Source: Sinorhizobium meliloti 4H41
GTDB taxonomy: Bacteria; Pseudomonadota; Alphaproteobacteria; Rhizobiales; Rhizobiaceae
NCBI RefSeq assembly: GCF_000375585.1
Contig: NZ_AQWP01000005.1
Span: forward strand, 62,001-126,000
Direction: 5' to 3'
DNA: 64,000 bases
Within the stretch, counting starts at the first letter, position 1. Each line of letters starts with the position of its first letter. The position numbers and the translations under genes are program-made. This document shows, piece after piece, positions 562 through 9,873 of this stretch. A model generated the notes under the pieces. That model had not been told where the DNA came from. It saw nothing but the letters and a program-made list of their open reading frames with translations, and did no database searches.

Positions 562-1011
562 TCAAGCGGCGCGCTTGTGGTCTGCCGGATGCTGCAGCCG
601 AAATCCGATCGCCAGCCGGTTCCATGCATTGATCATGGCGATGCCGATAGACAGCACCAGGAGTTCGTCTTCCGAAAAGACGCTTTGAGCAATTTCATAA
701 TCCGCATCCGGCGCACGGCTCTCGGCGATATTGGTCAGCGACTCGGCCCAGGTGAGTGCTGCGCGCTCACGGTCGCTGAACAGCTGCGATTGGCGCCAGG
801 CGCTCAGAAGACGCTCTTCCGTCTCGCCCCGTTTCAGGGCGTCCTGACGATGCATGTGCAGGCAATGGGCGCAACCGTTGATCTGCGACACGCGCACCTT
901 GACGATCTCCATTAGTTTGGGGTCGAAGCTTTTGGCAATCCAGGCTTCGACGGCGACGAGGCCATCGACTCCGTCATTCTTCCTGGTCAATATGTTCAAA
1001 CGTCCGGTCAT
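562..1011 (-). CDS. AhpD-family (carboxymuconolactone decarboxylase-like) alkylhydroperoxidase
   Basis: 149 residues, the usual size for a single-domain AhpD/CMD protein. The redox motif Cys47-x-x-Cys50 with His54 (in NGCAHCLHMH) is intact, as expected for a peroxidase that reduces organic hydroperoxides through a cysteine pair. The following helices (SDRERAALTWAESLT and SIGIAMINAWNRLAIG) match the all-helical family fold. It is probably cytoplasmic and oligomeric. Its neighbours are other redox or stress genes, which suggests a small detoxification patch. The physiological substrate and reductant cannot be inferred. ATG 1011 is preceded by GGAGAGCAGA. Confidence 0.88.
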   Translation of the reverse strand: MTGRLNILTRKNDGVDGLVAVEAWIAKSFDPKLMEIVKVRVSQINGCAHCLHMHRQDALKRGETEERLLSAWRQSQLFSDRERAALTWAESLTNIAESRAPDADYEIAQSVFSEDELLVLSIGIAMINAWNRLAIGFRLQHPADHKRAA

Positions 1012-1412: not shown

Positions 1413-2393
1413 ATGCAGGACATTTCAAACCCACCGGCTGTCGGCGTCTCGCGCCGCGACGCGCTGCTCGGCAGCCTTACCGCCGGTATCGCAACGGCCT
1501 TGCCGGCGGTTGCCGCCGCAAACACTCCGAAGCAGCCTCTCACCGCCACCATTAACCACGGAAAGCAAGCCATGAGCACCATCACCACCAAGGACGGCAC
1601 AGAAATCTATTACAAGGACTGGGGCACCGGTCCGGTCGTCACCTTCTCGCACGGCTGGCCGCTGAACTCCGATGCATGGGACGGTCAGATGCTATTCCTC
1701 GTCCAGCAGGGCTTTCGCGTCGTGGCGCACGATCGCCGCGGCCATGGACGCTCAAGCCAGCCGACGTCGGGGAACGACATGAACGGATACGCCGATGATC
1801 TGGCGGCCGTTATCGAGGCGCTGGACCTCAGGGACGCAACGCTGGTCGGTCACTCCACCGGCGGGGGCGAGGTTGCCCGCTATATCGGCCGGCACGGTAC
1901 GAAGCGCGTCGCCAAGGCCGTCCTCATCGCCGCCGTGCCGCCAGTCATGGTGAAATCGGCGGCCAATCCGGAAGGCCTGCCGATCGAGGCGTTCGACGCG
2001 ATCCGTGCTGGTCTCATCAAGGATCGCTCGCAATTCTACCGTGACCTTGCCCCGCAATTCTACGGCGCCAATCGACCCGGCTCGAATGTTTCCAAGGGCA
2101 CGCTCGACCAATTCTGGCTCTGGAGCATGCAGGCGGGTCTCTTGAACGCCTATGAATGCGTCAAGGCGTTCTCGGAGACCGACTTCACCGAAGATTTGAA
2201 GAAGTTCGATGTGCCGACGCTCGTCCTGCACGGCGAGGACGACCAGATCGTGCCGGTCAAGGATTCCGCCGTCAAATCTGCTCGGCTGATCAAGGGTGCC
2301 AAGGACATCTACTATCCCGGCGCGCCGCACGGCATTACCGCCACGCATCAGGACCAGGTCAACGCCGACCTGCTCGCCTTCCTCAAGGCCTGA
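1413..2393 (+). CDS. Alpha/beta hydrolase, non-heme chloroperoxidase-like, with Tat-type signal
   Basis: 326 residues. The body (from residue 54) is a cofactor-free haloperoxidase/esterase-type alpha/beta hydrolase: oxyanion region SHGWPL (79-84), DRRGHGRS (107-114), nucleophile elbow GHSTGG with Ser148, the Asp in [12 protein letters not shown], and the His in GAPHGI near the C-terminus. Before it sits a twin-arginine-like leader (SRRDALLG, residues 13-20, then a hydrophobic Ala/Leu-rich stretch ending AVAAA), suggesting export. ATG 1413 has GAAGGA upstream. Met54 (ATG 1572) also has a GGAAAG site and matches the usual cytoplasmic family start, so two forms are possible. The natural reaction is unknown: hydrolysis/perhydrolysis is typical and halogenation may be incidental. 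Confidence 0.85.
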
Positions 2394-2436: not shown

Positions 2437-2463
2437 TCCGCGCTTGGGGCGGCAATTCGCGGC

Positions 2464-2955
2464 ATGCTCATAACCGGCAGCGCCAGCGGAATCGGCCCCA
2501 GCACGGCCGAACTTGTGCGCTCGAGACGTCAACCGCCTCCTCGACTTCGCGCGGCGCTACGGCGAGCAGGTTGTCCCCATTGAACGCGATGTGACGGACA
2601 GGTCGCATCGCAGGGCGCAGTCGCAACCGCGATGGAACGGTCCGGATGCTTCGACGTGCTGTTGAACAAGGCCGGCTATCCGCATCCAGGCCCTGTCGAA
2701 TAGGTCTCTGAAGATGATTTCAAGGCGGAGATCGACACCCTGCAGACGTCAGGACATATCATCAACATCTCCTCCAGCTCGGCGCGCCTCGCCAGGACGA
2801 TCTGCCGGAACTGCTCGTCCCCGGAAGCGACGCGCTGGCGCGATTTTCCCAGAATGATGCGGTCCGATGGACGGCCGCGCGCGCCGCTGGAATGAGGCGG
2901 CAGTTCGTCGGACCTCGACGTGGATGCCACGCCGCTGCTCCGGACTGACAAGAAC
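2464..2955 (+). pseudogene. Disrupted short-chain dehydrogenase/reductase (SDR)
   Basis: Pieces of one SDR appear in order but in different frames. The NAD(P) loop LITGSASGIG begins at 2467. It is followed by RLLDFARRYGEQVVPIERDVTD. A frameshifted stretch reads FDVLLNKAGYPHPGPVE, then an in-frame TAG (2701-2703), then VSEDDFKAEIDT. After that the text jumps to SGHIINISSSSAR, so about 60 residues of the core are deleted. C-terminal-like fragments (ELLVPGSDAL-type) follow to about 2955. The YxxxK catalytic pair is gone, so it cannot encode an active enzyme. Bases 2956-3168 contain no gene I recognise. Confidence 0.8.
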
Positions 2956-3168
2956 CATCCAAGCGGATGTCGGATATCGTTGCGACATGACAGTTTTCTA
3001 CCAAGCCGGCCAAGCGACGGCGCCGCCGCCGATACATGGATTTCCATAAGTTGTGGCTGTCCAGTGGCGCGAATAGTGTACGACGCGGGGTCGCTGGCGC
3101 TGAGGTCGAGACTAGCCATTCGATATGCTGGCGCCGCCCAAGCTTTATTTTCCCTGCAGGAGCCGCCG

Positions 3169-6100
3169 ATGACGGACGTCTGGTCGAACCGCCCCCAATT
3201 CCTGCACCTGGGTCTGTTTTTTCTGGCTTATGTCCTGGGTTGCGGCTTCGCGCAGGCACTTGCAGTCGTACCCGGAACAGGCATTTCCATATGGCCCCCG
3301 AGTGGGCTTTTCGTTGCAACCCTTATCCTTACACCCAAGCAGAGCTGGCCCTGGTGGGTGCTGGTCGGCTGCCTTGGCGAGCTATTCGGCAATGTCCTGT
3401 GGTTCCAGAGCCCGCTGCCGGCCGCCGTCTTGATTTATACCGGCAACGCGCTCGAAGCGATGGTCGGCGCATGGCTCGTAAATCGGGTATTGGGTCGGCC
3501 GGTTCGGCTGGAATCCTTGCGGGAAGTTCTTGTGTTCGTCGTGGTGGGCGCTGGAGCTGCCCCGGTGGTCAGTGCGACGATAGGGAGTGCGACGCTTGCC
3601 TGGTTCGGCATATTCTCGCAAACGTTCTTGGCGGCCTGGCCTCTCTGGTGGATCGGGGACGCCACTGGGGTCCTGCTCGTCGCGCCGCTCGCGCTCGCCG
3701 TGATCCAGAACTGGAACGGCAAGGCCGAGCTAACGGCTGCGCGATGGATAGAGGCATGCGTCGTGGGAGTTATCCTTCTCGGCGTCGCGACCCTTTCGCT
3801 CGGCGGCTACCTGCCCTTCGCCTATATAATCATGCCGCCGCTGCTTTGGGCTGCGGTGCGCTTTGAGTTCAAGGGGGCTGCGGTTACCCTCGCCCTCCTC
3901 GCGCTAATAACCGCGGTCTTCACGATATCCGGCGCCAGCCAGTTCGCCGGAAACGCCGAGAACCAACGCCACAACCAGATCATGCTGCAACTCTTCCTGG
4001 CGATCTCCGCATTTTCGGCCCTGGTCGTGGCCGCCATGTCCCGGCAGCACCAGCTCGCGTTGCTGACATTGCGCCAAAGCATGGAGGCCCTGCGCGACCG
4101 GGAGCGAGAGCTCTCGCAGATCGTGAACTTGGTCCCAGTCCACATCAGACGCCTGACGCCCGAAGGCGAGCCGACCTTCTTCAACAAGCGCCTGGTGGAT
4201 TTTTTCGGTCTGGATCTGCAACAGTTGCACAGGCCAGGCACAAGTCAGCTAGAGGCAAACATTGAGGCTCTTGTCCATCCGGATGATGCGCCCGGTCTAT
4301 TGCAGGCGGTCCGCGATGCTGTCGCCAGAGGCGAGCCATACTCGATGAAATATCGCATGCGCCGCGCGGACGGCGTGTATCGCTGGGTTGATGGCCGAGC
4401 GGAACCCTTGCGAGACGAAGGCGGGACGATCTTGCAATGGTACGCAATCTCAATCGACATAGATGATGAGGTGCGCGCGCAGGAGGCCTTGCGCGACCGG
4501 GAGCGGGAGCTCTCGCAGCTCGTAGACGCCTTGCCAGTCCACATCTGGAGCTGGACGCCTGCTGGCAAGCTGGCCTACGTCAACAAGCGATCTTTGGAGG
4601 ATCTCGGCCTTTCCAAGGCGAATTTCGAAGATTCCGTCCGGGTGGCGCAAAAGCTGGTACATCCCGAAGATGCCCCCGAGGTCCTTCGAGCGTCAGCCAA
4701 CTCCCTTAAGTCTGGCGACGCCTTCATGAGGCGTTATCGCCGGCGTTGGAAAGATGGCAGCTATCGCTGGATAGAGGCACGCGCGCAGCCTCTGCGCGAT
4801 CAAGATGGAACGATCGTTCACTGGTATCAGGTGTCCATCGACATCGACGAACAGGTGCAGGCCGAAGAAGCGCTGAAGAGCAGCAAGCGGCAATTGGAGC
4901 AAATGATCGACGCCATGCCTTTCAATATCCTGAGCTTCGCCGCTTCAGGCAAGATGACCTACACCAGCAAGCGATATCTCGACGACGTTGGTTCGCCGAC
5001 GGCAGACTTCCAAGACTTTGATGCGCTGGCCCGGGACGTGGCTCACCCCGACGACTTTCCAGCGATGTTTCAGAGGGCATCGGATGGCTTTGCGGCCGGT
5101 GAGCCTTTCGTGAACCGATTTCGCGGGCGAAACAAGCAGGGCGTCTATCGCTGGAAAGAGGCGCGGGCGCAACCGTTCCGTGATGCAGATGGCACAATCG
5201 TGCAGTGGTACATTGCTTCGATCGACATTGAGGACGAGATGCGCGCGCAGGCGGCATTGCGCGAGAGAGAACGCTTCCTTTGGCAACTGGTGGAAACACT
5301 GCCGGCGATGATTGATTGTGTCGCACCGAACGGCGAACCTGTCTATCGCAGCCAGCAACTGCGCGAGTTCCTTGGCTATGAGCTGGAGGAACTGGATGGG
5401 AAGGCCAAAACGCGGCTGAACGGCACGCTCGATGCCGCGGTCCATCCCGACGATGTCGCGGGCGTCAAGGAGCATTTTGCCCAGTGCGTGGCGACCGGCG
5501 AACCCTATCTCAGAAAGCACCGCCTACGACGCTTCGACGGCGAATATATCTGGGTCGAAACGCGCGCCGCGCCGATGCGCAAGGACGACGGCACCATCGT
5601 GCAATGGAACGTTATTTGCCTGGATATCGATGGCGAGGTGCGGATGCAGGAAGAGCTGCGCCTGGCGCAGGAGCGACTTGCGCGCGCCAGCCAAGCCGCG
5701 AGCCTCGCGGAGCTGTCGGCCTCCATCGCCCATGAGGTGAATCAGCCCTTGGCGGCGATCGTCGCCAATTCGCATGCGTGCTACCGCTGGCTGTCGGCTG
5801 AGCCCGTCAATGTCGCGCGCGCCAAGATCACGACCGAACGGGTAATCCGCGACGCCAACTCAGCGGCGGAAGTCGTCGGCCGTATCCGTGCGCTGTTCAA
5901 GCAATCCGTGGAGAATAGGACCAGCCTGTCGCTCTCCGGCGTCATCGCCGAGGCGTGTAACCTGGTGGCGGGGGAGGCTTTGCGCCGTCGCATCCGGCTC
6001 GACATCGACGCGGAGGTCATGCTTCCGCCCATCGCAATCGACCGCATTCAGATCCAGCAGGTCCTGGTCAATCTCATGCGCAATGGCATGGAAGCAATGG

Positions 6101-6375
6101 AGGCCGTCGCGGTGGAAAAATTGCTCACCGTGCGCGCCTATCGCGTGGGCAGTGAGGTGCAGACCGAAATTGGCGACCGGGGAAGCGGTATCGAGTTTCC
6201 GGATCAGATCTTCGAACCTTTCTTCACGACGAAAGAGAATGGAATGGGCATGGGTCTCGCCATCTGCCGCTCGATCGTCGAGGCGCATGGCGGGCGTTTA
6301 TGGGCCGAGAAAAACGAACCGCATGGCGCGCGGTTCGTTTTCACCTTACCAATCGCGGGGAAAGCGGCGCCATGA
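3169..6375 (+). CDS. Membrane hybrid-input sensor kinase: MASE1, four PAS, HisKA, HATPase
   Basis: 1068 residues. Residues ~10-300 form a multi-span MASE1 sensor region (GISIWPPSG near the start; about eight hydrophobic helices). Four PAS_3/PAC repeats of ~128 residues follow, beginning near 306, 439, 566 and 695, each ending in a W(Y/N)xxSIDID-type PAC tail. A short coiled coil leads to the HisKA helix with phosphoacceptor His855 in SIAHEVNQPL. The ATPase part has an N-box (NLMRNGMEAM), DRGSGI and GMGMGLAICRS. Start: ATG 3169 has GCAGGAG upstream; the open frame extends 83 codons further left but overlaps relic DNA. The stop overlaps the next regulator's start (ATGA). The signal is unknown; PAS_3 folds may bind small ligands or cofactors. 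The HEVNQPL H-box resembles FixL/DctB-type kinases. Confidence 0.92.
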   Translation: MTDVWSNRPQFLHLGLFFLAYVLGCGFAQALAVVPGTGISIWPPSGLFVATLILTPKQSWPWWVLVGCLGELFGNVLWFQSPLPAAVLIYTGNALEAMVGAWLVNRVLGRPVRLESLREVLVFVVVGAGAAPVVSATIGSATLAWFGIFSQTFLAAWPLWWIGDATGVLLVAPLALAVIQNWNGKAELTAARWIEACVVGVILLGVATLSLGGYLPFAYIIMPPLLWAAVRFEFKGAAVTLALLALITAVFTISGASQFAGNAENQRHNQIMLQLFLAISAFSALVVAAMSRQHQLALLTLRQSMEALRDRERELSQIVNLVPVHIRRLTPEGEPTFFNKRLVDFFGLDLQQLHRPGTSQLEANIEALVHPDDAPGLLQAVRDAVARGEPYSMKYRMRRADGVYRWVDGRAEPLRDEGGTILQWYAISIDIDDEVRAQEALRDRERELSQLVDALPVHIWSWTPAGKLAYVNKRSLEDLGLSKANFEDSVRVAQKLVHPEDAPEVLRASANSLKSGDAFMRRYRRRWKDGSYRWIEARAQPLRDQDGTIVHWYQVSIDIDEQVQAEEALKSSKRQLEQMIDAMPFNILSFAASGKMTYTSKRYLDDVGSPTADFQDFDALARDVAHPDDFPAMFQRASDGFAAGEPFVNRFRGRNKQGVYRWKEARAQPFRDADGTIVQWYIASIDIEDEMRAQAALRERERFLWQLVETLPAMIDCVAPNGEPVYRSQQLREFLGYELEELDGKAKTRLNGTLDAAVHPDDVAGVKEHFAQCVATGEPYLRKHRLRRFDGEYIWVETRAAPMRKDDGTIVQWNVICLDIDGEVRMQEELRLAQERLARASQAASLAELSASIAHEVNQPLAAIVANSHACYRWLSAEPVNVARAKITTERVIRDANSAAEVVGRIRALFKQSVENRTSLSLSGVIAEACNLVAGEALRRRIRLDIDAEVMLPPIAIDRIQIQQVLVNLMRNGMEAMEAVAVEKLLTVRAYRVGSEVQTEIGDRGSGIEFPDQIFEPFFTTKENGMGMGLAICRSIVEAHGGRLWAEKNEPHGARFVFTLPIAGKAAP

Positions 6376-7013
6376 CAGCGGATGACCACGTCGTTTTCAT
6401 CGTCGATGATGACAAGCGCATAACGGAGGCTCTCGGCGAGCTCCTGGAGACCCACGGGATGCGTGCCATCGCCTTCGGTTCGGCGGGCGATTATGTCAGC
6501 GCCGAGAAACCGGATGTGCCTTCTTGCCTGATCCTCGACGTCGAATTGCCCGATATCAACGGACTTGAACTGCAGCGCCAGATCGCCGAGGGCGATCATC
6601 CACCCATCGTCTTCATCACCGGGTATGGCGACATTCCCTCCTCGGTACGGGCGATCAAGCATGGTGCGGTGGATTTCCTCACCAAGCCGTTCAGCGACGC
6701 GGACCTCATGGCTGCGGTGCATACGGCGATTTCCGAGGATCGGAAAAACCGATCGGAACGGGCTGAACTGAGCGTGTTGAGGCAGCGTTATCTCGAACTG
6801 ACGTTGCGCGAACGCGACGTGCTGCCGCTCGTGGTCAGCGGCCTCCTCAACAAGCAGGCGGCATCGGAACTGGGAATCAGCGAAGTGACGCTGCAGGTCC
6901 ATCGAAGGAATGTGATGCAGAAAATGGCCGCGGCATCACTCGCCGACCTGGTGCGCATAGCGGAGCGACTGGGAATACCGATCACCCATTCGCGCCGAAC
7001 GGGAGGAAATTGA
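6372..7013 (+). CDS. FixJ-family response regulator (receiver + LuxR-type HTH)
   Basis: 213 residues. The receiver (~1-125) has the acidic pocket VDDD, phosphoacceptor Asp in CLILDVELPDING, a Thr in FITGYGD and Lys in LTKPF. The C-terminal GerE/LuxR HTH (about 140-205) carries LTLRERDVLPLVVSG, NKQAASELGISEVTLQVHR, the usual DNA-binding helices. It is translationally coupled to the upstream kinase by a 4-base overlap, so it is almost certainly that kinase's cognate regulator. Targets are unknown. Start at 6372 rather than a frame-compatible upstream start inside the kinase. Confidence 0.92.
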   Translation: MTADDHVVFIVDDDKRITEALGELLETHGMRAIAFGSAGDYVSAEKPDVPSCLILDVELPDINGLELQRQIAEGDHPPIVFITGYGDIPSSVRAIKHGAVDFLTKPFSDADLMAAVHTAISEDRKNRSERAELSVLRQRYLELTLRERDVLPLVVSGLLNKQAASELGISEVTLQVHRRNVMQKMAAASLADLVRIAERLGIPITHSRRTGGN

Positions 7014-7015
7014 TC

Positions 7016-7393
7016 ATGGAGAACACCAAGCCAGTCGTCGCGGTTGTCGATGACGACCCGAGGCTGCTCGAGTCGCTGGAAGAACTGCTGGAATCCGCTG
7101 GATATGCAACTTGCTGCCTCCGCTCGGCCGAGCACCTGCTCGCCCGCGGCCTGTCGGACCTGGACCTGCTGATCACCGATATCGGCATGCCCTGCATGAA
7201 CGGCTTTGAACTTCGTGACATCGTCAACAAGGCGCGTCCGGAACTGCCGGTATTCCTGGTCACCGGCCGCCACGAGATCGCCTCTCAGGGCCGCGCGCGG
7301 GGCATCAGCGGCTTTTTCCGCAAGCCTTTCGATGCGCCTGCCCTGCTCATCGCGATAGGGGAAGCTTTGCAGAAATCGAGAAATGGAGGGTGA
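7016..7393 (+). CDS. Single-domain response regulator (receiver only)
   Basis: 125 residues, just a CheY-like receiver: VVDDDPR, phosphoacceptor Asp in LLITDIGMPCMNG, VTGRH and FRKPF. No output domain is present. It starts 2 bases after the previous stop, behind GGAGG; a TTG two codons earlier is an alternative start. Such proteins commonly act as phosphate sinks, intermediate carriers or protein-interaction switches. Here it sits between two FixJ-type regulators and downstream of one kinase, so it probably modulates phosphate flow between them. Confidence 0.9.
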   Translation: MENTKPVVAVVDDDPRLLESLEELLESAGYATCCLRSAEHLLARGLSDLDLLITDIGMPCMNGFELRDIVNKARPELPVFLVTGRHEIASQGRARGISGFFRKPFDAPALLIAIGEALQKSRNGG

Positions 7394-7395
7394 TT

Positions 7396-8091
7396 ATGAG
7401 AATTGACCAGCCGCTCCGGAGATCGGCAGTGCTGTCGCCACAGCACAAGAATGACACAAGTGAGCCCGTCGTCATCATCGTCGATGACGACGCGGCTGTT
7501 CGCGAAGGCTTGTCGGAACTGATCCTCTCGGCGGGCTTCCAGGCCGTAGCCTTCGCCTCGACCCGTGAAGTGCTCGACGCCGACATACTGGACAGCCCTG
7601 GCTGTCTGATCCTTGACGTTCGCATGCCTGGGGCAAGCGGCCTCCACCTGCAGCACCATCTGGCGGAGAGCGGCAATGGGAAGCCGATCATCTTCCTGAC
7701 CGGACACGGCGATATTCCGATGACGGTACAGGCGATGAAGGCAGGTGCCGTCGATTTCCTTACCAAACCCGTGCGCGACCAGACGCTGCTCGATGCGGTG
7801 ATCGCCGGCATTGCGCTCGATGCGTCGCGACGGGCCAACGCCATGGTCGTCAGGCGCAACGTCGAACGCCTGGAGACGCTCACGCATCGCGAGCGCGAGA
7901 TCCTGCGTGAAGTGGCGCGGGGGCGGCTCAACAAGCAGATCGCATTCGACCTCGGGATAAGTGAGGTCACTGTCAAGCTGCACCGCGCCAATGTCATGCG
8001 CAAGATGGAGGCCGGATCGATCGGCGAGTTGATCAGGGCCTGGGAGACGCTGCCCATGGCGATGCGCGAGGCCGGCGGCGCCTGGTTCTGA
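7396..8091 (+). CDS. FixJ-family response regulator (receiver + LuxR-type HTH), second copy
   Basis: 231 residues. A ~25-residue leader precedes the receiver (VIIVDDDAAVREGL; phosphoacceptor Asp in CLILDVRMPGASG; FLTGHGD; FLTKPV). The LuxR-type HTH has LTHREREILREVARG and NKQIAFDLGISEVTVKLHR. It is a paralogue of the regulator at 6372-7013 but clearly diverged. It starts 2 bases after the previous stop behind GGAGGG; GTG 7390 is an alternative start. It is the last gene of the four-gene signalling operon. Targets unknown; possible recognition of the same or overlapping sites is inference. Confidence 0.92.
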   Translation: MRIDQPLRRSAVLSPQHKNDTSEPVVIIVDDDAAVREGLSELILSAGFQAVAFASTREVLDADILDSPGCLILDVRMPGASGLHLQHHLAESGNGKPIIFLTGHGDIPMTVQAMKAGAVDFLTKPVRDQTLLDAVIAGIALDASRRANAMVVRRNVERLETLTHREREILREVARGRLNKQIAFDLGISEVTVKLHRANVMRKMEAGSIGELIRAWETLPMAMREAGGAWF

Positions 8092-8132
8092 CAGGATCGA
8101 TTTTTGCCGGCGTCGCCGATGATAGGTTGTGA

Positions 8133-9029
8133 TCACATCGCTTCGATGGCTCTCGCCTCGCGCGCGATGAAGTCGCAGAACAGTTTGACGCGCAATGGCA
8201 CGGTGCGGCCGAATGCATGCAGTGCATTGAATGGCAGGCTTGGAAGTGCGATCTCTGGCGCGGGCGTGACAAGCGTACCCACTTGCAGTTCCTTTGCCAC
8301 CAAGCACCGCAGCAGATAAGCGGCGCCCAACCCGGCGAGCGCCGCTTGGATGAGTGCGGCGCCCGAATCGCAATCGACGCGGCCGACAGGCACAAAGCTG
8401 CTCCCGTCTGCCAGGCGCACGGGCTGAACCAATCCGCCGAGGACGTATCGGGCAAAGGGCAAGGCTGCAAAACTTTTGGCAGGCAGCGGATTGCCCCAGG
8501 TCTCAAGAAAAGCCGGAGAGGCGACGATCACCATCTGCAGGTCGGCCAGATGACGGACGATCAAATCGCCTTGCGTCGGATTGCCAGCGCGCAACACGAC
8601 GTCAAAATCCTCCCGGATCAGATCGACGAACCGGTCGGTCAGGCCGATATCGAGATGCAAGTTCGGATTGTCGGCCGCAAAGCCTGTAAACAGCCGCGGC
8701 AGCAGCAGGGGCGCCAGCTCGGCTGGCATGCTGACGCGTAGACGGCCGGAGAGTGCGGCATCGGACCCGATCCCCTCGTCGCTCGACTCCAGATCCCGCA
8801 GGAGCGGTGCGACGCGTTCGAAGAAAATCCGGCCGTCCTGTGTCAACGTCAGGGCCCGGGTGGAGCGTAGGAAGAGACGCGCGCCGATCTTCTTTTCAAG
8901 CCGCGCCACGCTCTTCGACACCGCCGATGGCGTCGTGTCGAGATTGCGTGCCGCGGCGCTGAAGGAACCGGCCTCCACCGTTCGCACAAAGGCTATCAAT
9001 CCAGAAGTCTCGTTCAGCAGGTTCGGCAT
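8133..9029 (-). CDS. LysR-family transcriptional regulator
   Basis: 298 residues from ATG 9029, which has a GGAG site; an upstream in-frame ATG at 9065 would add 12 residues. The N-terminal HTH (TSGLIAFVRTVEAGSFSAAA, then TTPSAVSKSVARLEKKIGARLF) is typical of the CrgA-like LysR subgroup, and the periplasmic-binding-like effector domain follows. It is divergent from the SDR gene at 9124. The 94-bp gap between them probably holds the shared operator, making the SDR the likely target. The effector is unknown. Confidence 0.9.
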   Translation of the reverse strand: MPNLLNETSGLIAFVRTVEAGSFSAAARNLDTTPSAVSKSVARLEKKIGARLFLRSTRALTLTQDGRIFFERVAPLLRDLESSDEGIGSDAALSGRLRVSMPAELAPLLLPRLFTGFAADNPNLHLDIGLTDRFVDLIREDFDVVLRAGNPTQGDLIVRHLADLQMVIVASPAFLETWGNPLPAKSFAALPFARYVLGGLVQPVRLADGSSFVPVGRVDCDSGAALIQAALAGLGAAYLLRCLVAKELQVGTLVTPAPEIALPSLPFNALHAFGRTVPLRVKLFCDFIAREARAIEAM

Positions 9030-9123
9030 TCGCAACTCCGCGGCACAAATCATGTGCGTGCCCATGATCTAATGGATGAGCGTGCCGCCGTTTATCTCAA
9101 GCTCAGTTGAAAGGAGATAAACA

Positions 9124-9873
9124 ATGCAACGTCTCGAAGACAAGGTCGCCGTTATCACCGGTGGCAATAGCGGCATCGGCAGGGCGACCGCCAAGCTTTT
9201 CGCCGAGGAAGGCGCGCGGGTCATCATCACCGGCCGGCGGCAGGATGTCGTAGACCAAGCGGTGCGCGATATTGGTCATCATGCCTTGGGGGTCGTGGGT
9301 GATGTCGCTGATCTCGAACATCACCACAGGGTGGCGGACATGATCCAGAACCGTTTCGGCGGCGTCGACATCTATATGGCCAATGCCGGCGTCATTAGTC
9401 TAACCGCATCCGGCGATGTGACGCCGGAAGATTACGATCGGCATTTCGCCATCAACACGCGCGGCGTGTTCTTCGGCGTCCAGACGATCGCGCCTCTAAT
9501 CCGCAATGACGGCAGTATCATCGTCACGAGTTCGCTGGCGGCGACAAAGGTGTTGCCGGACCACGCGGTTTACGCCGGCTCGAAGGCCGCCGTAGCCGCC
9601 TTCGCTAAGAATTGGGCGATCGAATTCAAGGCACGGCGCATCCGCGTCAACATTCTTAGCCCCGGGCCGGTCGAGACCGAAATCCTCGGCAAGCTCGGCG
9701 TATTGGAGGCGGAACGCCCTGCATTCGAGGATCACATGGCGTCACTCATCCCGGCGGGGCGAATGGGAAGGCCGGAGGAGCTGGCGCGCGCAGCGCTCTT
9801 CCTCGCCTCCGACGAGGGCAGCTTCGTAAACGGGATCGAACTTCATGCCGACGGCGGCATGACCTTGGCTTGA
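9124..9873 (+). CDS. Short-chain dehydrogenase/reductase (SDR), classical type
   Basis: 249 residues, normal length for a classical SDR. Cofactor loop TGGNSGIGRA (residues ~13-22), NAG motif in YMANAGV, catalytic Ser in SIIVTSSLAATK, and the YAGSK Tyr/Lys pair are all intact; the tail NGIELHADGGMTLA matches the family. The cofactor segment TGRRQDV after the second strand suggests NADP preference. The ribosome binding site AAAGGAG is strong. It is divergent from the LysR gene at 8133-9029 and probably controlled by it. Substrate unknown. Unlike the SDR relic at 2464, this copy is complete. Confidence 0.92.
   Translation: MQRLEDKVAVITGGNSGIGRATAKLFAEEGARVIITGRRQDVVDQAVRDIGHHALGVVGDVADLEHHHRVADMIQNRFGGVDIYMANAGVISLTASGDVTPEDYDRHFAINTRGVFFGVQTIAPLIRNDGSIIVTSSLAATKVLPDHAVYAGSKAAVAAFAKNWAIEFKARRIRVNILSPGPVETEILGKLGVLEAERPAFEDHMASLIPAGRMGRPEELARAALFLASDEGSFVNGIELHADGGMTLA

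Follow-up and report, generated by a model that had tools for sequence, protein, structure and literature searches.

A conserved cassette of one sensor kinase and three receivers in Sinorhizobium meliloti 4H41, with a candidate operator-promoter before the kinase gene

Does a single sensor kinase serve three receivers encoded directly behind it and, if so, what would each of the three be for? The question is raised by a locus in the window analysed here, a stretch of 64,000 nucleotides (nt) from Sinorhizobium meliloti 4H41 (NCBI RefSeq assembly GCF_000375585.1, contig NZ_AQWP01000005.1, positions 62,001 to 126,000 of the forward strand), in which the gene for a histidine kinase (HK) is followed by those for a FixJ-type regulator (RR1), a lone receiver (REC), and a second FixJ-type regulator (RR2). 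We find that these four genes are a real, conserved, and often plasmid-borne two-component cassette, the predicted branching and receiver roles of which rest on sequence comparison. Positions are counted from the first nucleotide of the window, and the genes are as follows.

3169..6375, + strand: HK, histidine kinase, 1068 amino acids (aa); MASE1 membrane domain, four tandem PAS domains, HisKA-type dimerisation and histidine phosphotransfer (DHp) domain with His855, HATPase_c
4090..5655, + strand: PAS array, four modules of 128-133 aa each, mutual identity 32-48%
6372..7013, + strand: RR1, FixJ-type regulator, 213 aa; receiver (D12-D14, D56, T83, K105) and GerE helix-turn-helix (HTH)
7016..7393, + strand: REC, lone receiver, 125 aa; D12, D13, D55, T83, and K103 intact
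7396..8091, + strand: RR2, FixJ-type regulator, 231 aa; receiver (D30, D74, T102, K124) and GerE HTH

The original prediction, a note made from the sequence alone, had described this layout, and its coordinates, the position of His855, the 4-base overlap, and the 2-base gaps all hold: HK and RR1 overlap in ATGA, and REC and RR2 each start 2 bases past the preceding stop codon. The HK frame stays open upstream to a GTG at 2920; we set the start at the ATG at 3169 because a ribosome-binding site is present (GGAG precedes this ATG) and MASE1 begins at aa 14. The Pfam matches of HK are MASE1 (aa 14-293), four PAS_3 stretches, and HATPase_c; the HisKA match is below the cut-off (21.2 of 26.9), and His855 lies within AHEVNQPL. 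RR1 and RR2 match Response_reg and GerE, and REC matches Response_reg alone. HK is the sole MASE1 match in the whole genome (6.79 Mb).

Relatives of the cassette were collected with a REC alignment from genomes that represent one species each. The scan yielded at least 592 stretches, and from the 368 that could be confirmed we took the best 80, a sample that favours close relatives of REC. The order HK-RR1-REC-RR2, with gaps below 300 bp, is found in 62 of these best 80 loci (two of the 62, L032 and L092, have a truncated kinase frame). An order not conserved among relatives had been named in the original prediction as grounds for giving it up; the recurrence of the order shows that this is not a chance array, and HK-RR1-REC-RR2 is a conserved unit recurring in many Alphaproteobacteria. 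HK and REC alone make up 11 of the 80 loci, and the remaining 7 comprise the full chain behind an additional kinase and regulator (L070), a kinase located further off (L057 and L088), a damaged RR2 (L033), a missing RR1 (L040), and partial cassettes (L106 and L107). A check anchored on RR1 gave 18 matches at E 1e-75 or better, in 17 of the 297 genomes of the family; two of the 18 loci run into contig ends, and REC comes next in all of the other 16, once as a fusion. RR2 is present at E 1e-70 or better in 20 of the 297 genomes, 17 of which have REC at E 1e-38 or better. Given these patterns, REC and the kinase look like the core of the cassette, and RR1 like the part most often lost. Some cassettes are decaying, with a frameshifted RR2 in L033, internal losses in the RR1 of L036, and mere remnants of RR1 in L040 and L098.

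The distribution of the cassette is patchy and often plasmid-borne. At E 1e-5, 278 plasmid records contain a REC relative, which is at least 60% identical in 197 of them. The plasmid-record DNA nearest to the cassette region is that of Rhizobium gallicum and R. etli 8C-3 (about 90%; own-genome records may be excluded there). By their labels, the 17 loci used for the tree described below cover eight named families (Rhizobiaceae, Phyllobacteriaceae, Devosiaceae, Aurantimonadaceae, Nitrobacteraceae, Methylobacteriaceae, Alloboseaceae, and Rhodospirillaceae) and, in addition, unplaced bins. We found no description of the four-gene arrangement in the open-access literature, which is consistent with the original prediction having called the system undescribed. 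The tags SMb20867-20872 are our guess at the pSymB orthologues; SMb20869, named as a two-component regulator in one paper, could not be tied to the locus.

Do the three receivers belong to this kinase? Their active sites are conserved almost without exception: D12, D13, D14, D55, and K103 of REC are kept in 85 of 85 rows, with T or S at position 83 in all 85, D30, D74, T102, and K124 of RR2 in 70 of 70, and D12, D13, and D56 of RR1 in 70 of 70, with T83 and K105 in 69. In a tree built from the receiver domains of 17 loci together with 19 further receivers from this genome (17 from 20 stretches fetched, plus two from contig C10), RR1 (support 95/97), REC (100/98), and RR2 (89/92) each form a single lineage, the tool flagging few columns and long outsider branches. 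At five helix 1 positions known from the literature as contacting the kinase, the residues are RIAEL in RR1, RLSEL in REC, and AVGEL in RR2. The acidic residue and Leu at the last two of these positions are found together in none of the 19 other receivers of the genome; across the loci, [ED]L occupies them in 70 of 70 RR1 and in 67 of the 68 scored RR2 (2 of 70 being unscored), and [EDN]L in 85 of 85 REC. RR1 and REC are moreover fused in frame, as receiver-HTH-receiver, on E. adhaerens plasmid p-2 and in G216, which we count as one case because the two are near-identical there. The RR1-REC fusions at L021:7290-8378 and L239:8000-9088 adjoin a second, divergent MASE1 kinase with its own copy of the operator described below.

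Thus, a kinase is encoded together with several intact receivers, and the set is conserved as a unit; the kept order, the co-inherited lineages, the intact receivers, and the similar contact residues all uphold the view of the original prediction that one kinase and three receivers go together. We consider it quite unlikely that the kinase serves one regulator only, the others being phosphorylated by kinases elsewhere and merely travelling along. The genome does contain 52 receiver-domain matches in all, and another HK-FixJ-REC set on C10, but the contact residues that RR1, REC, and RR2 have in common and the 19 others do not, the co-inheritance of the receivers over many families, and the very existence of the RR1::REC fusions argue against such independence. 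No histidine phosphotransfer (HPt) domain, second His domain, or kinase-fused receiver was detected with Pfam in the four cassette proteins (no search was made for HPt proteins encoded outside the cassette). The word 'phosphorelay' in the title of the original prediction is therefore not supported in its strict sense, and the cassette is better read as a putative branched, one-to-three two-component system.

How is such a cassette controlled? No operator was known according to the original prediction; a candidate operator-promoter is now found before the kinase gene.

3035..3056, + strand: conserved candidate operator CATGGATTTCCATAAGTTGTGG, comprising the palindrome core CATGGA-TT-TCCAT and the -35-like TTGTGG (3051-3056)
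3074..3079, + strand: -10-like TAGTGT, exactly 17 nt past the -35-like hexamer; start site estimated near 3086

Spaced words were compared among upstream regions, the kinase regions being those with an aligned MASE1-type N-terminus. Of the 66 kinase upstream regions, 53 contain the word ATGG-n4-CCAT (25 of 35 once dereplicated), versus 1 of 458 control upstream regions of the window's own genome. The consensus of the operator-promoter, CATGGATTTCCATRAGKTGCGG-N17-TANNNT, corresponds to window positions 3035-3079, with the palindrome centred near -44. In 36 of 37 dereplicated sites, the inverted repeat abuts the -35 and TANNNT follows 16-18 nt downstream (exactly 17 nt in 31), which is the layout of LuxR/FixJ-type promoters that are activated from a site beside the -35. 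In several copies, an outer repeat CGCAA...TTGCG is also present (by eye), and the matches before a divergent NAD(P)H-binding gene (15 of 20) are the kinase site read from the other side. At L237, apparently the same locus as L037, a gap lies between the kinase and RR1, and RR1 has its own operator and -10; RR1 of L238 is similarly preceded by a copy; at L239 and L021, two divergent kinases each have a copy of the operator-promoter. Within the genome, the 22-base form of the operator has one match with up to 3 mismatches, and the 21-base form has 4 matches. This highly conserved candidate promoter, newly recognised here, probably lets the cassette control itself. No description of the operator was found in the open-access literature, where one of four forms of the palindrome is printed in a paper on human ion channels, an unrelated context.

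Several observations on this site count against the self-regulating cassette proposed below. The word ATGG-n4-CCAT also occurs in 5 of 12 glutathione S-transferase (GST) and 1 of 50 short-chain dehydrogenase/reductase (SDR) upstream regions, in another sequence context; at L238, the palindrome precedes RR1 and none was found before the kinase; the palindrome core alone, ATGGANNTCCAT (12 bases), occurs at 8 places in the genome, which is near chance for its length; and the 21-base form with up to 3 mismatches has 64 matches in 20 related genomes, versus 4 for the reversed pattern. About 48 three-mismatch matches in these 20 genomes lie outside cassettes and could be further targets or chance. 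An open-frame test of the weaker matches was uninformative because known sites also lie under open frames.

It is highly unlikely, in our judgement, that the conserved element is an RNA leader, belongs to a longer kinase frame, or serves an unrelated regulator. Being an inverted repeat, it could fold as RNA; the kinase frame of the window runs through it without a stop, and long open frames overlie it in several other loci. However, Rfam gave no match up to E 0.1 within 2500-8300; the element lies 81 to 157 nt from the kinase start with no common frame, so that it is not kinase coding sequence; its sequence, the middle included, is nearly invariant and followed by a -10 hexamer at 17 nt; and extra copies precede RR1 or a second kinase. 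A leader peptide was also considered, given that the block opens with ATG and could read M-D-F-H, and was rejected: changes at first and second codon positions, together with a 1-nt deletion in L085, indicate that the block is conserved at the DNA level. A sigma-54 promoter was rejected because the GG-GC spacing is unfit (by eye).

Which of the two regulators would bind this operator? An exact palindrome is present in 63 of the 67 loci that have RR1, REC, and RR2; the kinase frame is truncated in two of the remaining four (L032 and L092), another has one mismatch (L039), and the last has an RR1 with internal losses (L036). With an intact RR1 and a scorable kinase start (n=64), 63 palindromes are exact and one is off by one. 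The palindrome is broken, with the -35 and -10 kept, in L013, L234, L036, and L098, that is, in all four loci in which RR1 is missing or wrecked and a site is still discernible. Among the 12 HK-REC loci, 11 have no site within 5 mismatches, the remaining one being L098. L040, which has only a remnant of RR1, keeps an exact palindrome; the same strain has RR1 in its L092 cassette. Since the palindrome is intact with RR1 and broken without it, RR1 is the likely binder of the operator at the kinase promoter. This assignment has evidence against it as well: the loci without RR1 are few in number, and some of them are related to one another (perhaps two events), the loss of RR1 in L013, L036, and L098 was judged at the locus only, G100 (L235) has RR1 and no RR2 and shows no site with fewer than 7 mismatches, and the palindrome of L033 is exact with a frameshifted RR2 (L078, on the same contig, has RR2).

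The converse, that RR2 and not RR1 binds the operator and that both regulators share overlapping targets, appears doubtful. The HTH helices of the two are related (EVTLQIHRRNVMQ in RR1, EVTVKLHRxNVMR/H in RR2), both regulators are present in nearly all loci with the site, and G100, in which RR2 and the site are absent together, would fit this assignment. On the other hand, L013 and L234 keep RR2, lack RR1, and have a broken palindrome, the palindrome is likewise broken in L036 and L098 with their wrecked RR1, and the site is absent from at least seven distinct loci that lack RR1 and have their RR2 in another place.

With RR1 as the likely binder, we propose that the cassette is a branched, self-regulating two-component system, a reading that we consider evenly poised between right and wrong. 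The MASE1-PAS kinase would autophosphorylate at His855, as its domain predicts, and would hand phosphate to RR1, REC, and RR2, all of which would come from one transcript. RR1-phosphate would dimerise and bind CATGGA-TT-TCCATG near -44 of the cassette's own promoter, which it would most likely activate. RR2-phosphate may act outward, its probable targets being the SDR, hydrolase, cupin, and MBL genes of the neighbourhood. REC, having no output domain, would compete for phosphate and in this way set the threshold and decay of the signal, and the PAS array, which varies in copy number from one relative to another, would be the sensory part. The operator-promoter suggests a division of labour, with autoregulation assigned to RR1 and output to RR2. 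A more detailed version is offered only tentatively: a three-receiver design with split jobs, in which RR1 is a dedicated autoregulator acting chiefly at its own promoter, RR2 acts outward, a compulsory intact REC sets the threshold, and an elastic PAS array senses, the whole being often plasmid-borne and spreading through Alphaproteobacteria with detoxification-type genes.

The PAS array varies widely. Among the 120 listed kinase homologues, there are 3 to 8 strong PAS modules (L040 has 2), and the median kinase lengths are 1068, 1211, 1455, and 1592 aa for 4, 5, 6, and 7 strong modules, respectively; the 65 four-gene loci have 0 to 8, mostly 4 and 5, the lowest counts including broken kinase frames. 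All these counts are minima because divergent modules are missed. The kinase lengths step by about 130 aa and form a natural PAS ladder.

What RR2 would act on can be approached through the genes around the cassette. The original prediction had reported flanking redox genes of SDR and peroxidase type, relics included, and the flanks are as it stated.

562..1011, - strand: AhpD/carboxymuconolactone decarboxylase family protein; neighbour family weakly enriched
1413..2393, + strand: alpha/beta hydrolase; neighbour family enriched over control
2458..2879 (about), + strand: SDR relic in two frames, with a frame change and internal loss; lies between the genes for the alpha/beta hydrolase and the kinase
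8133..9065, - strand: LysR-type regulator, transcribed divergently from the SDR at 9124; also adjoins several relatives of the cassette
9124..9873, + strand: SDR oxidoreductase, glucose-1-dehydrogenase-like; frequent neighbour

The relic matches an SDR that has an open frame at the same place in L029, at 49% and 73% over two pieces. Neighbours were compared between 37 dereplicated loci (from 76 that were long enough) and 20 stretches of 20 kb from the window's own genome. One SDR family is present at 23 of the 37 loci versus 0 of the 20 control stretches, a cupin at 22 versus 0, alpha/beta hydrolases taken together at 22 versus 0, an MBL hydrolase at 17 versus 0, CBS at 12 versus 0, and MscS, HlyD, and MFS at 10 versus 0 each, figures that lean upward because the control is a single genome and the families were picked from cassette neighbourhoods. 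For the window's own SDR family, enrichment is unclear (20 of 37 versus 6 of 20, p 0.07), and LysR is not enriched (9 of 37 versus 3 of 20). Nitroreductase and FMN (flavin mononucleotide) reductase are found at 21 and 20 of the 76 loci, respectively, but only at 2 and 1 of the 37 after dereplication. Among the 13 loci without RR1, an SDR is nearby in 10 and a cupin in 9. The neighbouring genes fit a detoxification or redox output. Against RR2 as their regulator stands the comparison of dyads in upstream regions, in which no shared operator was found at the linked enzyme genes, so that the targets named for RR2 are guessed from linkage. Two dyads at neighbouring enzyme genes, CAGT-n17-CCGA and TCTGGGACT, were rejected, as they fall for the most part within the ends of coding sequences that lie upstream (by eye).

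The sharing of phosphate by one kinase among several receivers and the presence of lone receivers beside regulators are wider questions of two-component signalling. Because the cassette is compact, occurs in many species, has natural losses and fusions of its parts, and carries a precise predicted operator, the proposed branching, the autoregulation, and the role of the lone receiver can be tested directly, and the PAS ladder provides a natural series on the effect of sensor copy number.

How does the cassette compare with known systems? FixL-FixJ-FixT, which senses oxygen in rhizobia and Caulobacter, resembles it in having a PAS kinase with an AHExNQPL phosphorylation box, a FixJ-type regulator, and a small receiver-like protein close by. 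Among the NCBIfam models, FixJ scores best with RR1, REC, and RR2, and FixL ranks second for the kinase. However, the scores stay far below the FixLJ equivalog cut-offs (286.8 of 850 bits for the kinase, 180.5 and 196.3 of 255 for the regulators), and the cassette differs in its MASE1 domain and four PAS modules in place of the FixL sensor, its two regulators, and its catalytically intact REC. The genome has its own fixL-fixJ-fixT-like-fixK-ccoN row on contig C16, and the cassette is without a fixK / ccoNOQP neighbourhood; with scores this far below the cut-offs and this neighbourhood missing, we rejected membership in FixLJ. The 1.1 kb around the C16 fixJ match an annotated fixLJ record, that of Sinorhizobium fredii GR64 plasmid pSfreGR64b, at 99.9%; given about 90% for the cassette, this symbiotic region (L010:3655-6989, C16) may have been recently exchanged.

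Membership of REC in FixT was rejected as well: REC does not significantly match the FixT-like protein encoded in this genome (L010:5890-6249, so named from its location between fixJ and fixK). REC might still act as a FixT-like anti-kinase that binds the kinase and blocks autophosphorylation rather than taking phosphate, which we regard as unlikely. According to PMC7078487, FixL autophosphorylation is inhibited by FixT, a single receiver, and phosphorylation of the S. meliloti FixT was not detected. REC is also the most constant partner of the kinase, RR1-less loci included (the loci were found via REC, which favours this). Yet the sequences of REC and the genome's FixT-like protein show no meaningful match, and the latter lacks both an acid pocket and the T of the conserved position (by eye), whereas REC keeps its catalytic residues in all 85 rows. 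For Cys 53, 56, 59, and 64 of Caulobacter FixT, described in PMC7078487, REC has no matching set (Cys 33, 34, and 60; by eye, unaligned). We prefer to see REC as a competitor for phosphate.

The best solved relative of RR2 is 1yio, listed as 'response regulatory protein', which we take to be StyR. Phosphorylated StyR activates from a site at about -40 from the start (PMC2442086). This position resembles the estimated -44 of the cassette; StyS/StyR and TodS/TodT differ from it in that no aromatic catabolic operon was noticed beside the cassette. To our knowledge, these two systems, which sense aromatic compounds, have one regulator and no lone receiver. NodV/NodW and NwsA/NwsB of Bradyrhizobium, like the cassette, combine a sensor kinase with a FixJ-type regulator in a rhizobium, and we know of no lone receiver in them. 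The phosphate-sink receivers of chemotaxis offer a parallel to the role proposed for REC, in that a lone intact receiver takes phosphate from a shared kinase, but they are linked to CheA and not to a FixJ-type transcriptional cassette. Finally, the HK-FixJ-REC operon on C10 of the same genome (L009:6729-9709) likewise has a kinase, a FixJ-type regulator, and a lone receiver in a row, and differs from the cassette in its kinase without MASE1, its single regulator, and its different contact residues.

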